From positions 1 through 58,337 of the forward strand of contig JANSYC010000022.1 in the NCBI GenBank assembly GCA_024742605.1: a DNA stretch of 58,337 bases. The letters run 5' to 3'. Both the position numbers and the translations under genes were made by a program. Numbering within the stretch: the first letter of the stretch is position 1; each line of letters begins with the position of its first letter. The notes below the pieces were generated by a model. That model was not told the DNA's origin and did no database searches. It worked only from the letters and a program-made list of their open reading frames with translations. Positions 21,057-29,239 of the stretch are shown here, piece after piece. Source of the stretch: Alphaproteobacteria bacterium (GTDB taxonomy: Bacteria > Pseudomonadota > Alphaproteobacteria > Thalassobaculales > Thalassobaculaceae).

Positions 21057-22070
21057 TTATTCGGCGGCGGTTTGAGCCGAAGCGGATACGTCAAGCACCT
21101 CGGCCTCGTCAACCGCCTCGCCCCGCAGACGGGCGTTCCGGGCGGCCCTGAGCTGCTCGAAATCCTCGCCCGCGTGATACGAGCTTCGGGTCAGCGGGGT
21201 CGATGCCATCTGCAGGAACCCCTTGGCGTAGCCGAACTGGGCATAGGCGCCGAACTCCTCTGGGGTGACGAACCGGTCGACGGCGATGTGCTTTCGGGTC
21301 GGCTGCAGGTACTGCCCGATGGTCATGAAGTCGACCTCGGCCGAGCGCAGATCGTCCATCACCTGCAGCACCTCGTCCCGTGCCTCGCCCAGCCCGACCA
21401 TGATGCCGGATTTGGTGAACATGGACGGGTCCAGCTCCTTGACCCGCGACAGCAGCTGGAGCGAGGCGAAATAGCGCGCGCCGGGGCGGACCGAGGTGTA
21501 GAGCCGCGGCACGGTCTCGAGATTGTGGTTGAACACATCCGGCTTGGCGCCGACCACCATCTCCAGCGCGTCCTTCTTGCGCAGGAAATCGGGCGTCAGG
21601 ACCTCGACAGTGGTGCCCGGCGAATGCTTGCGGATCTGCAGGATGGTCTCGGCGAAATGCCCGGCACCACCGTCGGGCAGGTCGTCCCGGTCGACGCTGG
21701 TGATCACCACATGGGCGAGGCCCAGCTTGGCCACGGACAGTGCCACGTTCTCCGGTTCGTGCGGATCAAGCTGGTCGGGCTTGCCCGTCGCCACATTGCA
21801 GAACGAGCAGGCCCGCGTGCAGACGGCCCCAAGGATCATCATGGTCGCGTGCTTCTTCGACCAGCACTCCCCGATGTTCGGGCAGGCCGCCTCCTCGCAC
21901 ACGGTGTTCAGCTTATGCGACCGCATGATCTCGCGGGTCTCGTGATAGACCTTCGAGGTCGGCGCCTTCACCCGGATCCAGTCCGGCTTCTTCAGCTGGA
22001 CCGGATTGTCCGGACGATGCGCCTTCTCGGGATGGCGGATGCGCGCCTTCTCGGCGCTCGCCTCGGTCAT
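21057..22070 (-). CDS. lipA: Lipoyl synthase
   Basis: 337 residues. A radical-SAM enzyme inserting two sulfurs into protein-bound octanoyl groups. The auxiliary cluster ligands are in [12 protein letters not shown] and the radical-SAM cluster in [25 protein letters not shown] and the C-terminal SSYHAGE segment also fit. Its placement beside lpdA-pdhCBA fits the need to lipoylate the E2 and E1-beta lipoyl domains encoded there. 25 bases separate it from lpdA upstream. Confidence 0.98.
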
Positions 22071-22095: not shown

Positions 22096-23505
22096 TCAGA
22101 AGTGGATCGCCCGACCGTAGGCGTCAAGGACGCTCTCGTGCATCATTTCGCTGAGGGTCGGGTGCGGGAAGATGGTGTGCATCAGATCCGCCTCGGTGGT
22201 CTCCAGCGTCATGGCGATGCCGTAGCCCTGGATCAGTTCGGTCACCTCGGCGCCGATCATATGGGCGCCCAGCAATTCGCCGGTCTTCTTGTCGAACACC
22301 GTCTTCACCATCCCCTCCGGCTCGCCAAGCGCGATCGCCTTGCCGTTGCCGATGAACGGGAAATGGCCGACCCGGACCTCGTAGCCGGCGGCCTTGGCCT
22401 TCGCCTCGGACAGACCGACGGAAGCCACCTGCGGGCGACAATAGGTACAGCCCGGAACCCGGGTGACGTCCAGCGGATGCAGCCCCATGGTGCCGGCGAT
22501 CTTTTCGACGCAGAGGGTGCCCTCGTGGGAGGCCTTGTGAGCCAGCCAGGGCGGGCCGACCAGATCACCGATGGCGTAGACGCCCGGCTCTCCGGTCTCC
22601 AGCCATTCGTTGACGACCACATGGGTCTTCTCGACCTTGATCTTGGTGCCCTCGAGGCCGATCCCCTCCACATTGCCGACGATACCGACGGCCAGAATGC
22701 AGCGGTCGAAATCCAGGGTTTCGGTCTTGCCGCCGACCTCGACCGTGACCTTCACGCCGCCGCCGGATTTCTCCAGCTTGTGGATCTTGGCGGAGGTGCG
22801 GATATCCATTCCCTGTTTCTTGAAGGACTTCAGCGCGAAGGCCGAGATCTCCTCGTCTTCGGCCGGCAGAATGCGGTCCATCACCTCGAGCACGGTGACC
22901 TTCGAGCCCATGTCGTGGTGAAAGCTCGCGAACTCGATGCCAATGGCACCGGAGCCGATCACCAGCAGCTTCTTCGGCAGGGTCTCCGGTACCATCGCTT
23001 CCTTGTAGGTCACGATCGCCTTGCCGTCCGGCTCCATGCCCGGAAGGGTGCGGGCGCGAGCACCGGTCGCCAGGATGATGTTTTTGGCGGTGTAGCCGGT
23101 GGTCTTGCCGTCCTTCTCGACCGCCAGCTTGCGCAGGCCGCCGGCGGTGCCGTCCAGCTTGCCCTGGCCGTCGATCACGGTGACCTTGTTCTTCTTCAGC
23201 AGGTGCCCGACCCCGCCGGACAGCTGCTTCGCCACCCCGCGCGACCGTTGAACCACCTTCTTAAGATCGAACGATACATCCTTGGCGCTAAAGCCATATT
23301 GATCGAGATTCTGAAGAATATGTCCGACCTCGGACGACCGCAGCAGCGCCTTGGTCGGAATGCAGCCCCAGTTCAGGCAGATCCCCCCAAGATGCTCGCG
23401 CTCGACCACGGCGGCCTTCATGCCGAGCTGGGACGCGCGGATGGCGGCCACATAGCCGCCCGGTCCGCCGCCGACCACGATGATGTCGAATTGGGTCTCG
23501 GCCAT
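22096..23505 (-). CDS. lpdA: Dihydrolipoyl dehydrogenase (E3)
   Basis: 469 residues. FAD-linked disulfide oxidoreductase that reoxidises dihydrolipoyl groups, passing electrons to NAD. FAD site DIIVVGGGPGGYVAAIRA, redox pair in GGICLNWGCIPTKAL (Cys 43 and Cys 48), NAD site GSGAIGIEFASF, and C-terminal HPTLSEMMHESVL with the catalytic His. I start at the ATG at 23505, preceded by AGGAGG; the longer frame overlaps pdhC. It is the last of the four-gene pdh cluster, and might also serve other 2-oxoacid complexes. Confidence 0.98.
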   Translation of the reverse strand: MAETQFDIIVVGGGPGGYVAAIRASQLGMKAAVVEREHLGGICLNWGCIPTKALLRSSEVGHILQNLDQYGFSAKDVSFDLKKVVQRSRGVAKQLSGGVGHLLKKNKVTVIDGQGKLDGTAGGLRKLAVEKDGKTTGYTAKNIILATGARARTLPGMEPDGKAIVTYKEAMVPETLPKKLLVIGSGAIGIEFASFHHDMGSKVTVLEVMDRILPAEDEEISAFALKSFKKQGMDIRTSAKIHKLEKSGGGVKVTVEVGGKTETLDFDRCILAVGIVGNVEGIGLEGTKIKVEKTHVVVNEWLETGEPGVYAIGDLVGPPWLAHKASHEGTLCVEKIAGTMGLHPLDVTRVPGCTYCRPQVASVGLSEAKAKAAGYEVRVGHFPFIGNGKAIALGEPEGMVKTVFDKKTGELLGAHMIGAEVTELIQGYGIAMTLETTEADLMHTIFPHPTLSEMMHESVLDAYGRAIHF

Positions 23506-23518
23506 GATCCCGGCCTCC

Positions 23519-24844
23519 TTACAGCAACATGGTGAGCGGGTCTTCGACCAGCTTCTTGAAGGCGGCGAGGAACTCGGCACCGACGGCACCGTCCACCACC
23601 CGGTGATCGACCGAAAGCGTACAGCTCATCACCGTGGCGATGGCGAGCGCGCCGTTCTTGACCACGGCCCGCTGCTCTCCGGCGCCGACCGCCAGGATCG
23701 CCCCCTGCGGCGGGTTGATGACCGCCGCGAAGTCCTTGATCCCGAACATGCCGAGATTGGAGATCGAGAAGGTGCCGCCCTGGAACTCGTCCGGTGCCAG
23801 CTTGCCGGCCCGCGCCCGGGTGGCCAGGTCCTTCATGGAGCTTGAGATCTCGATCAGCCCCTTGGAGCCCGCATCCTTGATCACCGGGGTGATCAGACCG
23901 CCGTCGATGGCGACCGCGACCGAGATGTCGACCTGCTTGTAGATGCGGATCGCCTTCTCGGTCCAGGACGCGTTCGCCGCCGGCACCTGCTTCAGCGCCA
24001 CGGCGGCCGCCCGGATCACCAGATCGTTGACCGACAGCTTGTAGGCATCGCTTTTCGCGTTGAGATCCTTGCGGACCTTCAGCAGTTCGTCGATCTCGCA
24101 GTCGACGGTCAGGTAGAAATGCGGGGCGAACTGTTTGGACTCCGTCAGGCGCTTGGCGATGACCTTGCGCATGTTTGAGTTCGGGATCTCGTCATAGGCC
24201 GGAAGACCCGGAACATCCGCGCTGGGGGCCGCCCCAAGGGACGGTGCCACCGCCGGAGCCGCCGCGGCAGCAGGGGTAGCATCGGGCGAGGCCTTTTTGC
24301 CACCGCCGCCGGACATTGCGGATTCCACATCGGCCTTCACGATCCGGCCCTGCGGACCCGATCCCTTGAGCGACGCCAGATCTAACCCGGCCTGCGCGGC
24401 CATCCGGCGGGCCAGGGGCGAGGCCTTCACGCGGCTTCCGTCCGCCGCAGCGGGTGCGGCGGGCGCCGGCGTATTCGCCGCCGGAGGAGATGCCGCCGGA
24501 GCTTCCGCCTTCGACGTGGGCTTGGCTTCGGGTTCGGACTTGGCGTCGGGTGCCGGCGCCGCCGGCTCGGCGCCCTCGGCCGGAATGTCGTCGGCGCTTT
24601 CGCCCTCCTCCAGGATATAGGCAATCACCGCGTTGACCGCGACCGCCTCGGTGCCTTCGGCGACGACGATCTTACCGATCGTGCCTTCGTCGACCGCCTC
24701 AACCTCCATGGTCGCCTTGTCGGTCTCGATTTCGGCGACCACGTCGCCGGAGGAGATCGTGTCCCCTTCCTTGACGTGCCATTTGACCAGATTGCCCTCC
24801 GTCATCGTCGGCGACAGGGCAGGCATCAGTAATGGTGTTGGCAT
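23519..24844 (-). CDS. pdhC: Pyruvate dehydrogenase E2, dihydrolipoyllysine acetyltransferase
   Basis: 441 residues. One N-terminal lipoyl domain (1-80, lipoyl Lys 43 in [11 protein letters not shown]), an Ala/Pro-rich linker, the peripheral-subunit-binding domain (VKASPLARRMAAQAGLDLAS), a second Ala/Pro linker and the catalytic core ending in SVDHRVVDGAVGAEFL with the active-site His. It forms the core of the complex and transfers acetyl to CoA. The lipoyl domain is nearly identical to that of the adjacent E1-beta gene. 14 bases separate the two genes. Confidence 0.98.
   Translation of the reverse strand: MPTPLLMPALSPTMTEGNLVKWHVKEGDTISSGDVVAEIETDKATMEVEAVDEGTIGKIVVAEGTEAVAVNAVIAYILEEGESADDIPAEGAEPAAPAPDAKSEPEAKPTSKAEAPAASPPAANTPAPAAPAAADGSRVKASPLARRMAAQAGLDLASLKGSGPQGRIVKADVESAMSGGGGKKASPDATPAAAAAPAVAPSLGAAPSADVPGLPAYDEIPNSNMRKVIAKRLTESKQFAPHFYLTVDCEIDELLKVRKDLNAKSDAYKLSVNDLVIRAAAVALKQVPAANASWTEKAIRIYKQVDISVAVAIDGGLITPVIKDAGSKGLIEISSSMKDLATRARAGKLAPDEFQGGTFSISNLGMFGIKDFAAVINPPQGAILAVGAGEQRAVVKNGALAIATVMSCTLSVDHRVVDGAVGAEFLAAFKKLVEDPLTMLL
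24599..24844 (-). repeat. Lipoyl-domain coding repeat, copy in pdhC
   Basis: The first 82 codons of pdhC match the first 82 codons of pdhB (26038-26283) closely in DNA, with about eight amino-acid differences. Long stretches such as the one coding [12 protein letters not shown] are the same. Confidence 0.85.
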
Positions 24845-24858
24845 GACCTCGCCTCCCC

Positions 24859-26283
<1,425 letters not shown>

Positions 26284-26344
26284 TTCTTGGTTTCCCCTTA
26301 TCCGGTCGCGCGAGGCCCGCTCGGGCCCGCTGCGCCCTTATCGG

Positions 26345-27394
26345 TCACGCTTCGACCAGGACGTCGGTGTAGAGTTCGGCTGGATCCGGTTCCGGGCTTT
26401 GCTGCGCGAAATCGGCGGCATCGGTGATGATGTCCTTGATCTCACGGTCCACTTTCTTCAACGCATCCTCGTCGGCGCCCTGTTCCAGCATGACCTTCTT
26501 GAGCAGATCGATCGGATCGTGTTCCTGCCGCATCTTGGTCACCTCGTCCTTCGAGCGGTATTTGGCCGGATCGGACATGGAGTGACCGCGATAGCGGTAG
26601 GTCGCGATTTCGAGGATGTACGGGCCCTTGCCTGCCCGGCAGTGTGCCACGGCCTTCTCGCCCGCCGCCTTGACCGCCAGCACGTCCATCCCGTCGACCT
26701 GTACACCGGGGATGCCGTAGCCGTGGCCACGCTCGGCCAGCGAGGTGCCGGCGGCGGCCCGGGCCTGGGAGGTTCCCATGCCGTACTTGTTGTTCTCGAT
26801 GATGAAGATGGTCGGCAGTTTCCAGAGCGCCGCCATGTTGAAGCTCTCGTAAACCTGGCCCTGATTGGTGGCGCCGTCGCCCATATAGGTCAGGCTGACC
26901 CGGTCGGTTCCCTCGTACTTGTGCCGGAACCCGAGTCCGTTGCCGATCGACACCTGCGCGCCGACGATGCCGTGGCCGCCGAAAAAATCCTTCTCACGAC
27001 TGAACATGTGCATGGAGCCGCCCTTGCCGCGGGAGTAGCCCCCGATCCGGCCGGTCAGCTCGGCCATCACGCCGCGGGATTCCATACCGCAGGCCAGCAT
27101 GTGGCCGTGATCACGATAGGCGGTGATGACGCTGTCGCCCGGCTCGATGGCGGCCTGCATCCCGACCACTACGGCTTCCTGGCCGATGTAGAGGTGGCAG
27201 AAGCCGCCGATCAGGCCCATGCCGTAGAGCTGTCCCGCCTTCTCCTCGAAGCGGCGGATCAGCAGCATGTCGCGATAGTATTTCGTCAGTTCCTCGACGG
27301 ACGGCATCTGCGCCTTGGAGGCGTCGGTCTTGGTCGACCGTTTGCGCGTCGTCGTCGAGCCACTCGAGCTGGTCTTGCGGGCCGCTCTTGCCAT
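26345..27394 (-). CDS. pdhA: Pyruvate dehydrogenase E1 alpha
   Basis: 349 residues. Thiamine-diphosphate-dependent decarboxylase subunit. Key segments are RRFEEKAGQLYGMGLIGGF, the YRDHGHMLACG region, the phosphorylation-loop-like GGYSRGKGGSMHMFSREKDF, and the TPP motif beginning GDGATNQGQVYESFNMA and ending in ENNKYGMG. The first 27 residues are basic, Ser/Thr-rich and probably disordered. It opens the pdhABC-lpdA operon; the 175-base gap upstream holds several dyad symmetries and a weak promoter-like pair (TTGCAT-17-TTAAAT). Confidence 0.98.
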   Translation of the reverse strand: MARAARKTSSSGSTTTRKRSTKTDASKAQMPSVEELTKYYRDMLLIRRFEEKAGQLYGMGLIGGFCHLYIGQEAVVVGMQAAIEPGDSVITAYRDHGHMLACGMESRGVMAELTGRIGGYSRGKGGSMHMFSREKDFFGGHGIVGAQVSIGNGLGFRHKYEGTDRVSLTYMGDGATNQGQVYESFNMAALWKLPTIFIIENNKYGMGTSQARAAAGTSLAERGHGYGIPGVQVDGMDVLAVKAAGEKAVAHCRAGKGPYILEIATYRYRGHSMSDPAKYRSKDEVTKMRQEHDPIDLLKKVMLEQGADEDALKKVDREIKDIITDAADFAQQSPEPDPAELYTDVLVEA

Positions 27395-27431
27395 GGTCGG
27401 CTCTCCCCTGTTCCTGTCCGGTTGACCGGGC

Positions 27432-27470
27432 GCGATCAGGTGATCGCTCCCAGAGCCAAGCTGTCTGGGA
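27432..27470 (-). other. Two adjacent hairpins in the pdhA leader
   Basis: Arms TCCCAGA/TCTGGGA (27448-27454 and 27464-27470) form one seven-pair stem; GCGATC/GATCGC (27432-27437 and 27442-27447) form a second. They are side by side, 38 bases before the pdhA start. No T-run follows, so they may shape or stabilise the mRNA leader. Confidence 0.5.
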
Positions 27471-27510
27471 TTTAAAGGGAAAGAGGGGTTAGATGCAAGG
27501 GGGCTAAATG

Positions 27511-27528
27511 TTTGTGTTGCAACGCAAA
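27511..27528. promoter_or_regulatory. Near-perfect 18-base palindrome upstream of pdhA, candidate operator
   Basis: TTTGTGTTGCAACGCAAA is symmetric except for one base pair (T/G versus C/A at the fifth position from each end), with GTTGCAAC at its centre. It lies about 115 bases before the pdhA start. The form is that of a dimeric repressor or activator site; the regulator is not known from this window. Confidence 0.5.
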
Positions 27529-27534
27529 AATGTC

Positions 27535-27557
27535 AGTTAACTGAATTTCGGTTAACT
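27535..27557. promoter_or_regulatory. Inverted repeat of GTTAAC sites upstream of pdhA
   Basis: AGTTAAC and GTTAACT arms are separated by nine bases; each arm contains the self-complementary GTTAAC. Six bases from the neighbouring 18-base palindrome and 13 bases beyond the ftsB stop. It could be an operator or an AT-rich ftsB terminator hairpin, since TTTTT follows nearby on the minus strand. Confidence 0.42.
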
Positions 27558-27569
27558 TGCTGTCAGGTC

Positions 27570-27935
27570 TTATTGAACCCGCGCGCTGACCATTGTGAGT
27601 CCCACCAAAAGGCTCGACGGCGCCTGACCCGTGCTGACCACCAGACTGTCCTCCGGTACGAAACCGAGCACGATCCGCGCCCGCTCTTCCAGCAAATCGG
27701 TGTCCAGGGACCCGGGACTCAACATCGCGACCCGTGCCTCGAGGGCGGCCCGCTGTGCCGAGACGCCGTCTTTGGTGGCTTGGGCCTCGGCGATATCCCG
27801 GTCCAGCTTGAAATAGGCCCGCACACCCCGGTCGCCTTCAATCGCATGATAGGAGAAGTAACCGACCAGCAGGCAGCCCAGAACCGGACCGACAACATGG
27901 CGCGCCCGCCGCTTCAACTCGTTCATCAACGCCAT
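27570..27935 (-). CDS. ftsB: Septum formation initiator family protein (FtsB/DivIC-like)
   Basis: 121 residues. A short basic N-terminus, one membrane helix (about 14-30, VGPVLGCLLVGYFSYHAI), a predicted coiled coil (about 41-75, rich in Ala/Glu/Arg heptads) and a C-terminal DTDLLEERARIVLGFVPEDS resembling the LEERAR-LG signature of FtsB. FtsB is part of the FtsQLB divisome complex. Conserved position between enolase and pdhA in alphaproteobacteria supports the call. Start at 27935 or at a second Met three codons later. Confidence 0.9.
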   Translation of the reverse strand: MALMNELKRRARHVVGPVLGCLLVGYFSYHAIEGDRGVRAYFKLDRDIAEAQATKDGVSAQRAALEARVAMLSPGSLDTDLLEERARIVLGFVPEDSLVVSTGQAPSSLLVGLTMVSARVQ

Positions 27936-28117
27936 TGGACCGTCTCCGGGTCACCGCGAATCATCGGGACTCAGTGGAACACAACGCCCGAATCGCGTCA
28001 CCGGGAACGAATCGCGAACCTCGAGTGGCCTGGGACGTTTCAGATGGAAAGTGTGACCAAAAAGACTCAGAAGGTCGGGTCAGTCGCTGCGTTCGGGCGG
28101 TTCGGGCAGGTTGGATG

Positions 28118-29239
28118 TCATCCGCGTCCCCCGAACCTCGCATACCCGAACGGTGCCAGTTCCGGCGGACGGAGACCCTCCAAGGCCCATTTCGTGACCA
28201 TCTCGGCCACCGCCGGGGCGATCGCCCAGCCGTGACCGGTCCAGCCGCAGCCCATGAAGGCGTTGGACAGGCCCGGCACCCGGTCGATGGTCGGGATGGA
28301 GTCGACGGATTCCGCCTCCAGGTGATCGGCGTCGGCCACCTCAACCTCAAGTCCGGCAAGGGACGGGTAGACAGCGGCCGCATCCGCGACATTCGCCGCA
28401 ATCGCCTCGGGGAGCGCCGTCCCCGTGCGGGTCTCCGGGTTCCAGTGTCCGAGATGGCCGCCCGAGATCATCAGGCGGCCGCCCTCCTCCGCCTTCAGCG
28501 AAAGGGTTCGGCTGGCATGGCCGATCAGATGCCGGACGGGATTGTCTGACAGGGGCCGGGACACCAGCACCTGCAGGGCGAGGTTCCAGGTCGGGAGATC
28601 GGCCCAAGGCCGGACGAGATCACGGACGCTGCTGTTCGCGAACAGTAACAGGTCGCCGCCGATGTCGATCTCGTCGCCGTCCACGGTCTCAAGGGCGACA
28701 GCCCGACCACCACGTTCGGTCACGCTTGCGACCCGGACCCCTTCGCGCAGGTCGACGCCCGCCTCTTTGGCTTTCGCGGCGAAGGCGCGGGTCGTGGCCG
28801 TGTGATCCGACACCCCGTCGCCCGGACAGTGGACCGCGGCGATGACCGACGGTGCAACGCCCGGCTCCAGATCCCGAACCGCATCGGCCGAGAGCATCGA
28901 TGTGGAAATCCCGTGGCGGTTCTGCAGGTCGATCCGCGCCTGGGCGTTTGCCAAGTCGCGCTTCCGCTCGATCAGCATCAGATGCCCGGTGCGCTCGAAC
29001 AGCGGGCCTGTGCCGAGCGTCTCGTGCAGGTCCGGCCAGATATCCCGCGCGCGGGCCATCAGCGGAAGTTCACGATGATCCCTGTAATTCGCCCGCACGC
29101 CCCGGCGACCCGGCCCGCCGGAGGCCCCGCTGGCGACCGTCTGCGCCTCCAGCAGAAGGACTTCGACGCCGCGCGAAGCAAGCCCCCACGCGATCGCTGA
29201 GCCGTAGACGCCGCCGCCGACGACGACGGTCTTTGCCAT
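28118..29239 (-). CDS. FAD-dependent oxidoreductase of the DAO family
   Basis: 373 residues with the D-amino-acid oxidase/sarcosine oxidase fold. N-terminal FAD Rossmann motif VVVGGGVYGSAIAWGLASRG with a following acidic LLLEAQ, and the C-terminal FMGCGWTGHGWAIAPAVAEM flavin segment. Substrate is not evident; glycine, sarcosine, D-amino acids or dimethylglycine are typical. It sits between ftsB and eno, a pair that is usually adjacent in related genomes, so it may be an insertion. Arms GGTTCGGG/CCCGAACC (28099-28106 and 28130-28137) straddle its stop. Confidence 0.9.
   Translation of the reverse strand: MAKTVVVGGGVYGSAIAWGLASRGVEVLLLEAQTVASGASGGPGRRGVRANYRDHRELPLMARARDIWPDLHETLGTGPLFERTGHLMLIERKRDLANAQARIDLQNRHGISTSMLSADAVRDLEPGVAPSVIAAVHCPGDGVSDHTATTRAFAAKAKEAGVDLREGVRVASVTERGGRAVALETVDGDEIDIGGDLLLFANSSVRDLVRPWADLPTWNLALQVLVSRPLSDNPVRHLIGHASRTLSLKAEEGGRLMISGGHLGHWNPETRTGTALPEAIAANVADAAAVYPSLAGLEVEVADADHLEAESVDSIPTIDRVPGLSNAFMGCGWTGHGWAIAPAVAEMVTKWALEGLRPPELAPFGYARFGGRG

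Follow-up and report, generated by a model that had tools for sequence, protein, structure and literature searches.

A predicted PhaR box and a widely conserved dyad upstream of pdhA in an alphaproteobacterium

In the alphaproteobacterial DNA analysed here (the window, a stretch of 58,337 nucleotides), the palindrome upstream of pdhA most likely covers a box for PhaR, a sensor of the stored bioplastic PHB that is titrated onto PHB granules. As far as sequence can tell, this would be another case of a known kind, since a shift of a pdhA promoter fragment, a site and a fall in expression have been reported for PhaR in Bradyrhizobium diazoefficiens (PMC6201568). Next to the box lies a 21-base dyad, here called dyad A, which is conserved more widely than anything else in the pdhA upstream region. 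We consider it probable that the pdhA promoter carries a PhaR site at about -59, immediately preceding a conserved sigma-70-type promoter, and dyad A near -83 for another regulator, and that free PhaR activates the operon while PHB granules titrate PhaR away.

The pdhA gene, coding for pyruvate dehydrogenase E1 alpha, occupies 26345..27394 on the minus strand and is followed on the same strand by genes for E1 beta (24859-26283), E2 (23519-24844) and dihydrolipoyl dehydrogenase (22096-23589), and by a lipA-like gene (21057-22070). Upstream of pdhA, also on the minus strand, lies an ftsB-like gene (27570..27935), all these reading frames being named by sequence recognition; the intergenic stretch between the two genes is 27395-27569, and a scan of pdhA upstream regions found an ftsB-like gene adjoining pdhA in many relatives. 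The host genome has a size of 4.47 Mb. Relatives of its PdhA include those of Thalassobaculum fulvum, Nisaea nitritireducens and the symbiont Candidatus Endolissoclinum faulkneri L5 (G012), to whose genus a second reduced genome, G020, also belongs, presumably that of Endolissoclinum strain L2.

Four dyad symmetries had been noticed at 27432-27557 in a preliminary description, and all of them were found at those positions. Two are leader stems on the minus strand, GCGATCA-GG-TGATCGC at 27432-27447 and CCCAGA-N9-TCTGGG at 27449-27469; the third is an 18-base palindrome, TTTGTGTTGCAACGCAAA, at 27511-27528, with 8/9 pairs. The remaining symmetry had been read as a pair of GTTAAC sites, and both copies are present (27536-27541 and 27551-27556), not as two separate sites but as the arms of one 21-base dyad with 9/10 pairs, dyad A, which reads GTTAACCGAAATTCAGTTAAC on the minus strand at 27536..27556 and has the consensus ATTAACYGAAATTCRGTTAAT. 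The four dyads are three different things, namely a PhaR box, dyad A and the two leader stems. The latter are not kept in the genus-mate G001 by eye, no Rfam match was found in 26200-28200, and they are probably incidental, lying within what would be the transcript leader.

Chance expectations for each class of symmetry were taken from three first-order Markov resamples of the window per test. Taken singly, neither near-perfect 18-mer palindromes (14 in the window, 13.7 expected) nor 21-mer dyads (3 against 4.3) are rarer than chance; the first kind of stem occurs 12 times against 3.3 expected and the second 27 times against 30.7. Their clustering is unusual, the 126 bases holding 7 inverted-repeat starts with arms of at least 6, a count that about 0.1% of 126-base windows attain. 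In the whole genome, the symmetric 18-mer pattern has 2 sites with up to three mismatches versus 1 in the reversed control, and the 21-base dyad pattern 46 versus 73; at one mismatch, each is found only as its copy upstream of pdhA. Comparative evidence is stronger than the statistics of the window. Phylogenetic footprinting, proposed in the preliminary description, drew on the pdhA upstream regions of 29 relatives (L006-L034) and on 80 named loci, some from the same genomes; both the 18-base palindrome and the 21-base dyad are kept before pdhA in relatives, and the lack of conservation that was to have counted against the palindromes was not what was observed.

The assignment to PhaR comes from two published descriptions of its sites. 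For Sinorhizobium meliloti, the motif WNWD2NYGCRNYGCRNH2WNW has been described together with a table of 21-base sites and gel-shift ratings of the promoter fragments (PMC12542648), and 25 of these sites, from gel-shifted promoters, were made into a symmetric matrix. With this matrix, 27512-27532 ranks first among the 58,317 positions of the window at 20.6 bits, within the 14.0-28.9 bits spanned by the training sites themselves, while the runner-up reaches 8.8. The 25 sites include one of the four exoH sites rated efficient, and the rank is robust to the choice: with the other three added (28 sites) the best and second scores are 20.3 and 9.7 bits, and with efficient sites alone (17 sites) 20.2 and 10.5. 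The predicted box, 21 bases on the minus strand centred at 27522, overlaps the 18-base palindrome, and its core TGCGTTGCA, at 27518-27526 on the minus strand, fits YGCRNYGCR. Furthermore, the palindrome fits by eye, at 11/12 positions, the consensus TGCRNYGCASMA derived with DNase I footprints in B. diazoefficiens (PMC6201568). Whereas the preliminary description could link the palindrome to no known regulator, PhaR thus fits by an independent matrix and by a footprint-based consensus. By eye the pdhA box misses the full 21-base consensus at two arm positions, and it is absent from the 14 strict matches in the genome; that consensus is a guide and not a defining rule, since several of the sites published in Table 3 miss it too (PMC12542648). 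That the palindrome looks like the site of a dimeric regulator of the pyruvate dehydrogenase operon, and is conserved, has held up, but not the dyad centre first given to it, GTTGCAAC: the functional dyad is likely TGCG-T-TGCA, centred at 27522, because in those promoters outside the Thalassobaculum-like group that keep TTGCRTTGCA the palindrome's right half is mostly absent.

PhaR is encoded in the host genome (PF07879 at G000:C133:18888-19070, E 5.1e-30). The genome has three phasin matches, two with paired PhaR boxes upstream, scoring 26.1/22.1 and 22.8/21.6 bits, and the third with no PhaR box above 9.1 bits. Genome-wide, the strict PhaR consensus is hardly enriched, with 14 sites versus 10 in the reversed control, and other host sites match or exceed the score of the pdhA box (28.7 bits at locus L242, 23.2 at L248, 20.9 at L250 and 20.8 at L244). 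High-scoring boxes at position 1501 of L242, position 1501 of L248 and position 569 of L250 stand before or near other genes, by eye a Sua5/YciO-like gene after the L242 box and an ABC-transporter ATPase gene after that of L250.

Across genomes, the box and the PhaR gene were compared in two samples. A first sample counted boxes of at least 13 bits within 330 bases upstream of pdhA, a region wide enough that some of its 30 boxes lie off the homologous place (for example at L016, L017 and L073); a box was found in 28 of the 62 genomes that have PhaR and in 2 of the 17 that lack it (one-sided p 0.0099, not corrected for kinship). The balanced sample took one genome per family: 92 were picked by size, 80 allowed and 74 found to have pdhA, and one region cut by a contig end left 73 promoters. 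Boxes of at least 13 bits were present in 15 of these against 1.8 in first-order Markov resamples, and all 15 belonged to PhaR genomes, that is, 15/63 with PhaR and 0/10 without, an association that is not significant in this sample (p 0.084); the other 48 of the 63 PhaR genomes have no 13-bit box near pdhA. The box also persists in two genomes that lack a PhaR match, at 23.2 bits in Endolissoclinum L5 and at 20.6 bits in the draft genome G035. Neither reduced symbiont genome, L5 or G020, has a PhaR or Phasin_2 match. The retention of the box in PhaR-less L5, which may reflect inertia or another binding protein, counts against a story of PhaR only. In the same L5 promoter (L027) dyad A is decayed by eye, yet the box keeps its high score, and the box of G020 (L026) scores 9.9 bits.

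Dyad A is conserved more widely. With at most one mismatch in its 19-base core, it occurs in 28 of the 73 family-balanced pdhA promoters, against 0.03 in first-order Markov resamples. A blind scan of 289 alphaproteobacterial genomes with the pattern gave 56 sites in 49 genomes, all of which were inspected (30 loci first, 25 fetched later, and G002, whose pdhA is at L017), and 26 of the 56 are found no more than 300 bases upstream of pdhA. Among the 55 loci other than that of G002, the match is upstream of pdhA in 20/20 with at least 55% G+C versus 5/35 in the rest, and the 30 matches away from pdhA are all in loci of at most 52% G+C. The profile, TTAACY-GAAATTC-RGTTAA, reaches 2.1 bits per column (63 sequences, 43.8 effective) and, being limited to sequences within two mismatches of the dyad pattern, is descriptive and no proof. 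Only the C/T-G/A pair shows clear covariation, with 38/58 paired versus 27.6 expected (p 0.001; 58 sequences dereplicated from 81). An RNA element was set aside: dyad A is located upstream of the promoter predicted below, occurs also where no ftsB was detected next door, and falls in the region without an Rfam match.

The two conserved elements are separate. In the Thalassobaculum-like group 29 bases separate the starts of dyad A and of the palindrome core, and a spacing of 28-29 bases is also seen in Magnetospirillum, Asaia, Rhodopila and others; among the 11 balanced promoters with both, the box centre is 23-29 bases downstream of dyad A in five, as in the host, and 19-41 bases upstream of it in six, which marks them as distinct. 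In the Nisaea-like loci L015-L019, a long dyad, TTTTCAATAAGTTAACTCTGTTGAAAA, stands by eye in place of the PhaR core, downstream of dyad A, and overlaps the -35. We lean towards a reading in which dyad A is an operator conserved in many alphaproteobacterial families, its regulator being undescribed and dedicated almost exclusively to the pyruvate dehydrogenase operon, and in which some lineages have gained PhaR boxes next to it at differing positions. No paper on the dyad was found in the searched part of the literature, outside subscription journals. The motifs of CtrA, the LysR T-N11-A box, Lrp, DeoR, FruR, PurR and PdhR were compared with it by eye, and none fits. In Tistrella mobilis (L071) a LysR-type gene (974-1885) lies by eye directly upstream of dyad A and pdhA; such a gene was seen in only 1 of 13 picked loci, most of them without a detected ftsB, and was taken as coincidence. 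Dyad A is the more novel and interesting part of this region, an operator-like palindrome kept class-wide before one gene, and would be a clean bait for the missing pyruvate dehydrogenase regulator.

A strict consensus promoter scan found no promoter. The family promoters share a pair of hexamers, which in the window gives a predicted -35, TTGCAT (27493..27498), and a predicted -10, TTAAAT (27470..27475), both on the minus strand. In 25/27 family promoters, versus 7.7 in letter shuffles, a TTG hexamer precedes a T(A/T) hexamer by 17 bases, and a tighter form of the pair occurs in 25/27 versus 1.5. Transcription would then start near 27463, and counted from this predicted start the centre of the PhaR box would be at about -59 and dyad A at about -83.

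The passage from sugar breakdown to acetyl-CoA is gated by pyruvate dehydrogenase. When no PHB is stored, free PhaR would occupy its box and aid transcription of the pdh operon, and with it the conversion of pyruvate into acetyl-CoA; as PHB granules build up, PhaR would be soaked up and the operon turned down, while dyad A would bind another regulator. Binding and the activating direction at the host pdhA are inferred. In B. diazoefficiens, PhaR shifts the pdhA promoter fragment only partly, at the highest protein amount and with low affinity, and pdhA falls 2.25-fold in a phaR mutant (PMC6201568). In S. meliloti, loss of phaR lowers PdhB and PdhC by about 2 log2 units in one medium; in a second medium the effect is near nil (-0.27 and -0.16), and Table 3 of that study, its list of PhaR sites, includes no pdh box (PMC12542648). 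With PhaR boxes at pdhA in several families of Alphaproteobacteria, central carbon flow would be under the direct control of stored PHB outside the rhizobia as well.

Since PhaR is known chiefly for repression, and presumably represses through the phasin boxes of the host, it might also bind the pdhA box and repress pdhA as it does phasin genes. We regard this as unlikely: the box is upstream of the predicted -35, and pyruvate dehydrogenase falls without phaR in both B. diazoefficiens and S. meliloti (PMC6201568, PMC12542648). A different reading takes the whole block downstream of dyad A as an IHF or HU bend site (T-tract, TTG, CAA-N4-TTR), with the palindrome only a part of it. The best match to WATCAANNNNTTR falls at a single offset in 24.5 of 58 aligned promoters against at most 5.6 in shuffles, CAA-N4-TT occurs in 24 of the 58, and a bend site would explain why PhaR-less Endolissoclinum keeps the place. 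That count was made post hoc on homologous, pre-aligned promoters, however, the CAA falls inside a PhaR arm, the window fits WATCAANNNNTTR by eye at only 11/13 positions and the G+C core is left unexplained, and we hold this reading to be still less probable than repression. At 27500-27515, on the minus strand, CAA-N4-TTA with an upstream T-tract is weakly conserved with IHF-like spacing, and is also seen in promoters without the PhaR core.

The first candidate considered for the palindrome was an acyl-CoA-responsive regulator of the ScfR/RamB family; PF09856 is present in the host genome, and acetate and propionate genes are under the control of this family (PMC10370305). Paracoccus RamB, however, requires a pair of near-identical boxes spaced 18 bases apart (PMC10370305), and PF09856, like PhaR, is absent from both reduced symbiont genomes. 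This candidate was set aside because the palindrome is, by eye, a single site and the PhaR matrix fits far better, and we give it very little credence. Least credible of all is that the four symmetries are together a product of chance: both palindromes do occur at chance frequency in the window, but the count of dyad A in the balanced promoters and the PhaR matrix result refute this for dyad A and the PhaR box, and it still stands for the two leader stems.

Both elements can be set beside known systems. E. coli PdhR shares the pyruvate dehydrogenase operon as a target, and its motif, ATTGGT-N3-ACCAAT, fits neither pdhA dyad by eye. The operator of mycobacterial BkaR, of the TetR family, is like dyad A a palindrome of GTTAA half-sites, but these are reversed (GTTA-N8-TAAC versus TTAAC-N9-GTTAA) and belong to another phylum, and there is no evidence of kinship between the two (PMC3920632). 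The pdhA box of B. diazoefficiens, TGCAGTGCGGCA, shares with the host box the regulator family, the target gene and the core TGCRNYGCR (PMC6201568); that species is of another alphaproteobacterial family, and the host box scores high whereas the published fragment was only partly shifted. Finally, the paired boxes of S. meliloti phaP1 and phaP2, phasin boxes of the kind from which the matrix was built, have the same core and A+T-rich arms as the host pdhA box, but at those phasin promoters two boxes flank the -35 and repress, whereas a single box lies upstream of the predicted -35 of the host pdhA (PMC12542648).
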